In this document: positions 17,019 to 19,368 of the stretch, piece after piece
Position numbering within the stretch: the stretch's first letter is position 1
Layout: every line of letters begins with the position of its first letter
From: Candidatus Nitrosopumilus sp.
GTDB lineage: Archaea > Thermoproteota > Nitrososphaeria > Nitrososphaerales > Nitrosopumilaceae
NCBI GenBank assembly: GCA_030637455.1
Contig: DAOWGL010000195.1
Location: 1 to 19,368, forward strand
Direction of reading: 5' to 3'
Length of the DNA stretch: 19,368 nucleotides
Position numbers and translations under genes: made by a program
The notes under the pieces: generated by a model
Told to the model about the DNA's origin: nothing
The model's input: the letters and a program-made list of their open reading frames with translations, nothing else
Databases searched by the model: none

Positions 17019-17291
17019 ATGAAAAAACCACTTGTGCCTACAGCGTATGTTCTATTGAATTCTGATTTAGGATCAGATGAATCAATCATCAGCGAAGTAA
17101 AACAAATTCTTGCGGAAGAAAATGTGAAATATGAAGTTCAGGGTGTATACGGAGTATACGATATTGTCCTAAAGTTAACTTCTGATGATGCTGAAAAATT
17201 ACGTGCAATCATTACCAATAAAGTTAGAAAAATTAGCAAAGTTCAATCTACGCTAACAATGATGGTAATTGAAGAGCAAGAAAACCTATAA
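17019..17291 (+). CDS. stand-alone Lrp/AsnC ligand-binding (RAM) domain protein
   Basis: 90 residues consisting of one alpha/beta RAM domain (PTAYVLLNSDLGSDESIISE, then VQGVYGVYDIVLKLTSDD), with no helix-turn-helix. The YGVYDIVLK strand followed by a helix (DAEKLRAIITNKVRKI) and a final strand (TLTMMVIEEQ) is the Lrp core. Such single-domain Lrp proteins oligomerise, bind amino acids, and can modulate full-length Lrp regulators or act as metabolic sensors. ATG 17019 follows a TTTGAATAATGA box about 26 nt upstream. Its 3' end overlaps the convergent aminotransferase gene by six bases. The ligand is unknown. Confidence 0.85.
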   Translation: MKKPLVPTAYVLLNSDLGSDESIISEVKQILAEENVKYEVQGVYGVYDIVLKLTSDDAEKLRAIITNKVRKISKVQSTLTMMVIEEQENL

Positions 17292-18437
17292 TTTCTTTAT
17301 TTTATCAATTACATCTAAAATCTGAGATTCAGTATTGAAAAAGTGTGGTGATACTCGTATTATCTTCTTGTCTATTATTTCCCTTACTGCTAAAATGATA
17401 TTTTGTTTTTCAAGTTTATCAACAACTTGTTGAGAATCAAATCCTTTGATGTTAAAAGAAACAATACTTGTTCTAACATTTGGATCATCTGGACCATACA
17501 AAATAATATTTGGAATTTTTGATAATTCTTCTCTAAAAAGATTAGATAGGTATTGATTTTTTTCACGAATGTTATTCATTCCAAATTTTAATAAATAATT
17601 TGCAGATGATTCTAATCCAACAATTCCCACATAATTTCTAAATCCAGTTTGAAATTTATCTGGCAATTCTTTGTATGCCAACTTTGAATCATCATAAATG
17701 ATTGCAGATTCACCACCAATAGTTTTGGGTTCTAATAGTTCACTAGAACTTCTTTTACAGTAAAATAATCCTGTACCCATAGGTCCACAAAGCCACTTAG
17801 ATCCATTAAATGACATGAAATCACATTTTATTTTTGAAACATCGATATCACCAATACAACCTATACTTTGTGCACTGTCAATGAAAAATGGGACCTTATT
17901 TTCAAGAATTTTTCCTATTTCTTCTACAGGTATAATTGCACCAGTATTATACAATACATGACTAAGTGTAACTAGTTTTGTCTTATCATTAACAAGTGAT
18001 TCTAAATCATCTAATTTAAAAAAACCATTATCATCAATGGGTAAATTTTGAATAGAAATTTTTTCTTGTAATTTAATCCATGGGTAAAAATTTGCATGAT
18101 GTTCGTGTGTCATTCCGCGAATTATCATATTAGAGTCATTATCAAAAGATAATCCATTTGCTACAAAATTAATTCCATCAGTAGTACTTTGAGTGAGAAC
18201 TACTTCATCAGGTTGACAAGAGATAATTTTTGCTATAGTTTTTCGCACATTTCGTAGTTTATCATTAACAAATGGTTCTGACTCTTTTGAATCAGGACCA
18301 ATAGAATTGTATGTAATTAAAAATTCTTTCATAGCCTCAATACTTTGAGTAGGCATTAAAGAGACAGAAGCATTATTGAGATAGATTTTATCTGAGATTG
18401 GGAAATCATCTGAAATGTCTTTAGATATCAAATTCAT
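17286..18437 (-). CDS. class V aminotransferase, SufS-like but lacking the catalytic cysteine
   Basis: 383 residues, fold-type I PLP enzyme. Seen: TQSTTDGIN (82-90, phosphate site), the THEHHANFYPW block (110-120) with the PLP-stacking His114, DSAQS (187-191), and SFNGSKWLCGPMGTG with K214 as the PLP lysine. These match SufS/CsdA cysteine desulfurases. However, the last 150 residues contain no cysteine, and the segment that carries the SufS active-site cysteine is shortened (ILAVREIIDKKIIRVSPHFF). It therefore should not form a persulfide; isopenicillin-N epimerase-like or another lyase/aminotransferase chemistry is more likely. ATG 18437; divergent from the RecA-fold gene with only a short spacer. 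Confidence 0.82.
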   Translation of the reverse strand: MNLISKDISDDFPISDKIYLNNASVSLMPTQSIEAMKEFLITYNSIGPDSKESEPFVNDKLRNVRKTIAKIISCQPDEVVLTQSTTDGINFVANGLSFDNDSNMIIRGMTHEHHANFYPWIKLQEKISIQNLPIDDNGFFKLDDLESLVNDKTKLVTLSHVLYNTGAIIPVEEIGKILENKVPFFIDSAQSIGCIGDIDVSKIKCDFMSFNGSKWLCGPMGTGLFYCKRSSSELLEPKTIGGESAIIYDDSKLAYKELPDKFQTGFRNYVGIVGLESSANYLLKFGMNNIREKNQYLSNLFREELSKIPNIILYGPDDPNVRTSIVSFNIKGFDSQQVVDKLEKQNIILAVREIIDKKIIRVSPHFFNTESQILDVIDKIKKL

Positions 18438-18460: not shown

Positions 18461-19057
18461 TTGGTGTTGGATAAAAATCCTGAGCAAATTATAGATAATG
18501 ATTTAACACAAATTCAAATTAAATTTGAACAAAACAATCCAAATATCGTTTTATGTTCAAAACCATTCCATAAAATTGAATTTCTTAATAGATTAATCAA
18601 TTCAACTGAAGATCCAATAATTTTCATTGACATGGATTTACTATACACGGGATATGTAGAATCTAAAATGATTCAGAAAAAAGAAAATCTAACAATCTTT
18701 TGCCCAAATAAAACAGATTGGGAAGAAAAATTCTCTGAAATTATTTCCAAAGTATCAAAAGACAGATTTTTGATAATTATTGACTCCTTTAACGGGGTCT
18801 ACAATTTGTTTGATGACTTGGAATCAGCCATATTCATTAATTCGTGTATAATGTTACTCTCATCAATTGGAAATCATGTTAAATCATCTGTTGTAATAAC
18901 TGGAATGGCACGAAAAAAAGAAAATGATGGTTGGATTCTTTCACCAGGTGGAAGACACATCATTAAATCAGAAAAAACAGGTGTTTATTTTCTTAAAAAA
19001 ACTGAAAATGGCTTGACAATTAGCACTTTAGAACAAACAGATGGAAAAAGAAAATAA
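18461..19057 (+). CDS. RecA-fold protein with degenerate P-loop
   Basis: 198 residues. The strand KDRFLIIIDSF (100-110) looks like a RecA/RadA Walker B with Asp108. The C-terminal part (ILSPGGRHIIKSEKTGVYFL) resembles the late strands of RadA/RecA ATPases, where a GG precedes the hydrophobic strand. At the place of Walker A, residues 29-45 read IVLCSKPFHKIEFLNRL, with none of the GxxGxGKT glycines, so ATP binding is doubtful. It is shorter than RadA and lacks the N-terminal domain. Three start codons are tandem (TTG 18461, GTG 18464, TTG 18467); a TATTATATC box at 18437-18445 best fits the last. Possibly a non-catalytic RadA-like partner or a signalling RecA-fold protein. Divergent from the aminotransferase gene. 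Confidence 0.55.
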   Translation: MVLDKNPEQIIDNDLTQIQIKFEQNNPNIVLCSKPFHKIEFLNRLINSTEDPIIFIDMDLLYTGYVESKMIQKKENLTIFCPNKTDWEEKFSEIISKVSKDRFLIIIDSFNGVYNLFDDLESAIFINSCIMLLSSIGNHVKSSVVITGMARKKENDGWILSPGGRHIIKSEKTGVYFLKKTENGLTISTLEQTDGKRK

Positions 19058-19089
19058 AAAATGAAAATCTAAGATAGCGATCAAAATTA

Positions 19090-19122
19090 AAACGCCGTTA
19101 TAAAATATCAAACGCCGTTATA
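19090..19122 (+). repeat. two 13-bp direct repeats, likely operator of the ferredoxin gene
   Basis: AAACGCCGTTATA occurs at 19090-19102 and, identically, at 19110-19122, exactly 20 bp apart. Each contains the perfect 9-bp palindrome AACGCCGTT (centres 19095 and 19115), and the two centres lie on the same face of the helix. AAATATC and GATATTT arms flank the second copy (19103-19109, 19127-19133). The pair ends 20 bases before the TATA box of the ferredoxin gene, a position suited to a regulator binding as two dimers. The rest of the spacer, to 19175, holds nothing else that I recognise. Confidence 0.6.
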
Positions 19123-19142
19123 GCACGATATTTCTAGGCAAA

Positions 19143-19150
19143 TTATATTA
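19143..19150 (+). promoter_or_regulatory. TATA box of the ferredoxin gene
   Basis: TTATATTA about 30 nt before the ATG at 19176; AT-rich context, no Shine-Dalgarno. A leaderless transcript starting near 19173-19176 is expected. Confidence 0.55.
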
Positions 19151-19175: not shown

Positions 19176-19368
19176 ATGCCTGTAGGAATAATTCCAGACA
19201 TCAGTGAACAAATGTGTATCGGATGCGCACTATGTGTAGAAATCTGTACCACACTTGGACCAGATGTCCTAAGAGTAAAACCAGTTGAAGGCTGGAAGAG
19301 AGGTAAAGCATTTGTCTTTTACCCAGAAAGATGTATTTCAGATGGTGCATGCATTGGTGTATGCCCAA
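19176..19368 (+). CDS. ferredoxin with two [4Fe-4S]-type cysteine motifs (partial, 3' cut off)
   Basis: The first 64 residues are visible and the frame runs off the window. CIGCALCVEIC gives C14, C17, C20 and C24 (CxxCxxCxxxC), and the second set begins C53, C59, C63-P64 (CISDGACIGVCP), with the first cysteine spaced CxxxxxC. Between them lies an insertion with a GWKRGKAF loop, typical of archaeal ferredoxins and ferredoxin-like electron carriers. It should shuttle low-potential electrons, for example to oxidoreductases of carbon fixation or to nitrogen metabolism; no partner is visible here. The tandem operator-like repeats just upstream suggest regulated expression, perhaps tied to iron or redox state. 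Confidence 0.88.
   Translation, partial: MPVGIIPDISEQMCIGCALCVEICTTLGPDVLRVKPVEGWKRGKAFVFYPERCISDGACIGVCP

Follow-up and report, generated by a model that had tools for sequence, protein, structure and literature searches.

Palindromic sites at ferredoxin, sufB and transporter promoters of ammonia-oxidizing archaea suggest a shared iron-sulfur regulon

Introduction

Both the sea and the soil harbour ammonia-oxidizing archaea in abundance. At the end of the archaeal contig studied here (19,368 bp, called the window throughout), two identical copies of a short palindromic sequence stand in front of a ferredoxin gene. The question raised by this locus is whether the pair is a regulatory operator and, if so, which other genes carry the same site. 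A preliminary description of the window had proposed that two regulator dimers occupy the pair and that it belongs to a regulon of electron-transfer genes. Among the matches listed in a limited literature search, we found no description of such a motif or regulon in ammonia-oxidizing archaea. The site provides a defined piece of DNA to use as bait, along with a brief list of targets, so that a direct search for the regulator is feasible. With it one can also test how the supply of Fe-S clusters is matched to the demand of ferredoxins in these archaea, a matching that would operate although no IscR-type protein scored over cut-off in the eight genomes searched.

The operator pair in the window

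The operator pair and the features around it are as follows.

18461..19057, + strand: gene upstream of the operator pair, a flank outside the element, with no Pfam match
19077..19082, + strand: GCGATC element, whose GATC precedes the distal core by 12 bp; the second element conserved in ferredoxin promoters
19090..19102, + strand: distal operator copy AAACGCCGTTATA, with the core AACGCCGTT at 19091-19099; kept in orthologues
19110..19122, + strand: proximal operator copy AAACGCCGTTATA, with the core at 19111-19119; kept in orthologues
19137..19149, + strand: putative BRE/TATA box GGCAAATTATATT, assigned from its sequence; conserved in the alignment of 118 promoters
19176..19367, + strand: 4Fe-4S ferredoxin gene fdA with start MPVGIIPDISEQMC, truncated at the contig end

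As previously described, the two copies of AAACGCCGTTATA are identical, lie exactly 20 bp apart and precede a TATA box and a ferredoxin gene, the product of which is a 4Fe-4S dicluster ferredoxin (ATG at 19176). Other details of that description had to be adjusted. The 9-bp core is palindromic only if its centre base is left unpaired (AACG-C-CGTT); the copies are identical over 13 bp and, when lengthened to 20 bp, still 80% identical; and the gap between the second copy and the TATA box (AATTATATT, 19141-19149) is 18 bp, not 20 bp. Judging from the position of the TATA box, the fdA transcript is probably nearly leaderless. The exact core occurs twice in the window, both times at the operator pair, with a mean of 0.01 occurrences in shuffled windows. 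From this layout we infer that two dimers would bind the pair.

The gene upstream of the pair, whose orthologue in genome G046 has a weak RadB-like match below the cut-off, stops 32 bp before the distal copy, close enough to raise the idea that the copies act on the RNA of that gene or as its terminator. We regard this as very unlikely already, given that no Rfam family and no terminator-like site were found, and that the sites also stand in front of genes whose neighbours differ and, at fdA and at the paralogous ferredoxin gene fdB, lie upstream of the TATA box.

Two other genes near fdA were noted in the window. One (17286-18437) encodes an aminotransferase class V protein, with a G046 orthologue that is SufS-like below the cut-off, and the other (17019-17291) encodes a stand-alone Lrp-type ligand-binding domain protein; the gene order is kept in G046.

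Conservation at fdA promoters

The ferredoxin was found in 146 of the 151 genomes of the family, covering 22/22 genera. Of 448 relatives, 80 named loci were kept. The promoters read, without exact duplicates and without L281 (no start found), comprise 118 distinct fdA upstream regions. The preliminary description held that its proposal would fall if the repeat were absent from orthologous promoters or varied freely, and neither is the case. At least one AAC-N3-GTT core is present in 115 of the 118 promoters (at least two cores in 97, one in 18, none in 3) and in each of the 22 genera sampled. The promoters that lack a core are all three of those read from family f3 (L276, L280, L282), which have only ATC-N3-GTTATA. 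In a first set of 100 fdA promoters, the core was present in 97 versus 3.95% of shuffles and an AT-flanked core in 94 versus 0.55%, where the shuffling reverts to mononucleotides if the dinucleotide path fails.

A 75-promoter alignment had been chosen for its cores, so we quote conservation from the alignment of all 118 promoters, which was not selected for the motif. In this alignment, identity in the AAC/GTT columns is 97-100% for the proximal copy and 85-94% for the distal copy, and in the ATA tails 93-100% and 83-95%, respectively. Between the proximal copy and the TATA region the columns drop to 34-54%. The spacing from core to core is also narrowly kept: of 83 pairs, 70 are 20 bp apart, 12 are 21 bp apart and 1 is 19 bp apart. 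The central triplets (n=180) are mostly of the form purine-any-pyrimidine (GCC 91, GGT 39, GGC 23, ACC 12), so the inverted repeat is kept even where the centre changes. We are nearly certain that the operator pair is not a product of chance and that the copies are selected regulatory sites.

In the window, each copy has ATA on one side only. Genomes G003 and G034, which belong to two genera, have the distal copy inverted (TATAACACCGTT and TATAACAGCGTT, read in gene direction). At fdB the site is mostly symmetric, ATAAC-N3-GTTAT, usually within CATAAC-N3-GTTATG. Taken together, the one-sided fdA copies, the inverted distal copies and the symmetric fdB form indicate that the underlying site is (T/C)ATAAC-N3-GTTAT(A/G), a palindrome of 13-15 bp.

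Related sites before other genes

All 29 fdB promoters (29/29) contain the core, and 22 of them contain the full ATAAC-N3-GTTAT. Two of them, L146 and L155 from genus g3, have a degenerate extra copy upstream of the site (ACACCGTTATAA and ATAGCGTTATAA), possibly an incipient or decaying tandem pair.

Ferredoxin promoters share a further element. In 82 of the 115 core-bearing fdA promoters and in 22 of 29 fdB promoters, the first core is preceded by a GATC that begins 11-13 bp upstream of it, compared with 0.6% (fdA) and 0.5% (fdB) of mononucleotide-shuffled upstream stretches. In the window it is found at 19079-19082, within a GCGATC/CGATC element. This element suggests that ferredoxin promoters bind a partner factor or contain a longer composite site.

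The site is also found before sufB, a gene of Fe-S cluster assembly identified by TIGR01980 (718.6 bits against a cut-off of 346.4). It is present in 30 of the 41 sufB promoters read (28/38 anchored and 2/3 unanchored), a set that covers 35 of the 41 family genomes. Two other families of the same order, f2 and f3, have it as well, in 3/3 genomes each; these families may be Nitrosocaldaceae and Nitrososphaeraceae, and hence ammonia oxidizers too. It is absent from all sufB loci read of genera g2, g5, g7, g11, g13, g15 and g16, and from one of the three of g17. An ArsR-like gene was seen near sufB.

A third target encodes the binding protein of an SsuA-type ABC transporter (TIGR01728, 167.3 bits against a cut-off of 163.5), with a putative substrate. 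Promoters were read for 30 of the 39 genomes with a transporter match, two loci without an anchor included, and the site was found in 21 of the 30, as exactly TATAACGCTGTTTTATG in 14 and with one change in 7; it is absent from the loci read of g2, g5, g7, g15 and g16. Genera without the sufB or transporter site still keep their fdA sites.

A zinc-type ferredoxin, whose best match (NF041165, 96 bits) is below the cut-off of 280, has the site in a minority of cases, 8 of the 28 displayed loci out of 30, from genera g11, g16, g17, g20 and g22. In the draft genome of the window itself (1.27 Mb, 80% complete), the sites can be checked at fdA and fdB only: sufB starts at the edge of a contig, and the transporter did not turn up in this 80% of a genome.

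Additional palindromic boxes were observed in some of these promoters. A box TAGCTTAAGCTA / TAGCTTGAGCTA, which we take to resemble DtxR-type iron boxes, lies upstream of the TATA box in many sufB (for example L190, L196) and transporter (for example L303) promoters. Many zinc-type ferredoxin promoters (for example L222, L232, L235) have TTTAGT-N4-ACTAA just upstream of the TATA box, with or without an AAC-N3-GTT site.

Genome-wide distribution

The preliminary description had suggested looking for the regulon by searching the genome for the exact core. In the window's own draft genome, AACGCCGTT occurs only at the two places already known (the backwards pattern occurs five times), so we replaced it with a degenerate palindrome. 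The regulon becomes visible only with the AAC-N3-GTT palindrome plus AT flanks, and across relatives. As controls for these searches we used the same patterns read backwards, which do not preserve dinucleotides; with that reservation, AACRNYGTTATA has 41 matches in 12 genomes versus 207 for its backwards form. Of the 41, 38 are in target promoters: 24 are fdA copies, 8 are in the promoter of the SsuA-type binding protein, 3 are at sufB, 1 is at the zinc-type ferredoxin, and 2 (one site, counted on both strands) are at the start of the transporter operon in G008. Two more are elsewhere, and one (G061:C10:34476) was left unassigned.

The perfect palindrome ATAACNNNGTTAT has 18 sites in 7 genomes versus 62 backwards, with 13 in target promoters (6 fdB, 6 sufB, 1 transporter operon) and 5 elsewhere, 4 of these inside open frames. 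Relaxing the pattern to AACRNYGTTAT yields 72 matches in 8 genomes versus 555 backwards. Of those 72 matches, 29 loci were printed: target promoters account for 7, and most of the other 22 fall within open frames, so that a loose match by itself carries little weight. We judged single matches inside frames (L116, L340, L341, L348, L349) to be chance. A site 35 bp upstream of a frame (L138) and one at a frame end (L339) were each seen in one genome only.

In eight 20-kb stretches, a flanked site lies upstream of 7 of 155 ORF starts, and 6 of the 7 are sufB, the transporter or fdB. The stretches were picked around target genes, so it is only the remaining 1 of 149 other starts that serves as a background figure.

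This distribution bears on whether the promoters resemble each other by convergence, with separate sites for different factors or an element that merely sets promoter strength. Their flanks do differ, being one-sided ATA at fdA, symmetric CAT..ATG at fdB and TATAAC..GTTTT at the transporter, and the ferredoxin promoters have an extra GATC that the printed sufB promoters lack at that distance. Against convergence, genome-wide searches with the AT-flanked core lead to genes linked in function, and only that single one of the 149 other starts has it; we think this explanation improbable. It is instead likely that fdA, fdB, sufB and the transporter share one factor. The electron-transfer regulon of the preliminary description is borne out in that related sites stand before other redox and Fe-S genes, but it was drawn too narrowly, since the targets extend to Fe-S cluster assembly and a sulfonate-type transporter.

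Site position and a proposed mechanism

The sites fall into different places relative to the TATA box. At fdA and fdB they lie upstream of it, with the centre of the proximal core mostly 55-63 bp before the ATG. The sites of sufB and the transporter are placed between TATA and ATG: the former follows the TATA box immediately (TATTTATAATATAACG..), and the core of the latter stops two bases short of the ATG. Archaeal activators typically sit upstream of the TATA box, and repressors between it and the start. In the available sections of a report on OxsR of Haloferax, a site 5' of the BRE/TATA is associated with activation and a site 3' of it with repression (PMC9426492).

We propose that one dimeric factor binds the sites at fdA, fdB, sufB, the transporter and, in some genera, the zinc-type ferredoxin. 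Bound upstream of TATA, it would activate the ferredoxin genes; bound between TATA and the start, it would repress sufB and the transporter. Such a factor could balance the supply of Fe-S clusters against the demand of Fe-S proteins, and the cue to it might be cluster, iron, sulfur or redox status. From the promoter sequences, we consider an Fe-S/sulfur regulon run by one dimeric factor of position-dependent dual action to be probable, with a Ptr2-like Lrp/AsnC dimer as a candidate. For the split into activation and repression we argue from site position, and we lean towards it with less assurance.

A broader scheme is put forward tentatively. One regulator of Fe-S/sulfur homeostasis, not of the IscR type and dating from the common ancestor of the three families sampled, may switch demand and supply oppositely through a single palindrome: demand through ferredoxin sites upstream of TATA, with a GATC-binding partner, and supply through TATA-to-start sites at the sufB operon and at sulfonate-type uptake.

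Candidate regulators

One candidate for the factor lies in the target list itself. The suf operon ends, after sufU, with a gene for a small protein.

L250:13991-14335, L255:14831-15178, L257:5946-6293: last gene of the suf operon, uncharacterised

The protein (114-115 aa) may contain a winged helix and four cysteines, which would make it a SufR-like, Fe-S-sensing autoregulator. Its C-terminal cysteine pattern is invariant in the three genomes aligned, and it is present in 40/40 genomes of the family in the sample. There is no Pfam or NCBIfam match over cut-off, and PDB sequences gave two matches with E of 0.06 and 0.75, so the fold is a guess from sequence. It is also found in 0/3 f2 genomes and 1/3 f3 genomes, yet the sufB site is in all six. 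Given this mismatch, we consider the protein a weak candidate and its role as the regulator quite unlikely.

A narrower version of our preferred explanation is that the shared factor is an Lrp/AsnC regulator which, like Ptr2, recruits TBP to switch on ferredoxin genes. The inverted repeat of 13-15 bp, the two-turn spacing at fdA, the proximal site near the BRE and the ferredoxin target all fit this. There is also an Lrp-like gene in G046 (L251:15308-15727), and the stand-alone Lrp ligand-binding domain (17019-17291) is encoded near fdA. However, Lrp sites are degenerate with an AT-rich centre, while here the centre is often G/C and the arms are strongly conserved, and no Lrp gene is linked to the sites. 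We therefore think this version possible but doubtful. In G000, a AACACCGTTAT match in an Lrp-like frame (L166) was considered as an autoregulatory site and rejected, being near the 3' end of the frame. The shared dimeric factor may be of the Lrp type or another winged-helix protein.

Comparison with known systems

IscR, of the Rrf2 family, resembles the proposed factor in regulating Fe-S assembly genes. We rejected it as the regulator: PF02082 is over cut-off in 0 of 8 genomes, with weak partial matches in 5, while among 14 control genomes it has matches in 13, over cut-off in 12.

SufR acts, like the proposed factor, at a suf promoter through a palindromic operator with AAC/GTT half-sites. 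According to the available sections of the source, its operator is CAAC-N6-GTTG, and it is dedicated to the suf locus and restricted to Cyanobacteria and some Actinobacteria (PMC8593673). The conserved sufB site here has a spacer of 3, not 6. SurR, an ArsR-family regulator of redox and sulfur metabolism, has GTT/AAC half-sites with a 3-bp spacer; its motif is GTTn3AAC, and the sections available describe it as unique to Thermococcales (PMC8595942). The half-site order is opposite in the conserved sites of this study, which are AACn3GTT. The resemblance to OxsR, a TrmB-family protein of Haloferax volcanii, lies in the rule of 5' activation and 3' repression; as far as the available account goes, OxsR differs in its CG-rich motif, its response to hypochlorite and its haloarchaeal distribution.

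The geometry of the fdA sites can be compared with that of archaeal Lrp proteins. In the available sections of the literature, their sites are inverted repeats 13-17 bp long with two or three helical turns between them, and are described as degenerate with an AT-rich centre (PMC2995911), and activation is by a dimer site just upstream of the BRE (PMC2995911; PMC2894021). In Methanocaldococcus jannaschii, the targets of Ptr2, fdxA and rb2 among them, have two sites at regular spacing (PMC2995911; PMC2894021). In our set, ATAAC-N3-GTTAT is an inverted repeat of 13 bp that can be extended to 15, and the fdA cores are 20 or 21 bp apart in 82 of 83 pairs, but none of the fdB, sufB or transporter promoters analysed alongside them has two cores. 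An AT-rich centre is not seen, the fdA central triplets being mostly GCC, GGT and GGC. Sites downstream of TATA, as at sufB and the transporter, have no counterpart in the available part of the Ptr2 account, and the recognition sequence of Ptr2 presumably differs from the operator pair. The likeness is in the two regularly spaced sites upstream of the BRE/TATA of a ferredoxin gene, in the site length and, at fdA, in the two-helical-turn spacing. Given this geometry, and leaving Lrp membership aside, the fdA layout would work like a Ptr2-type activating region.
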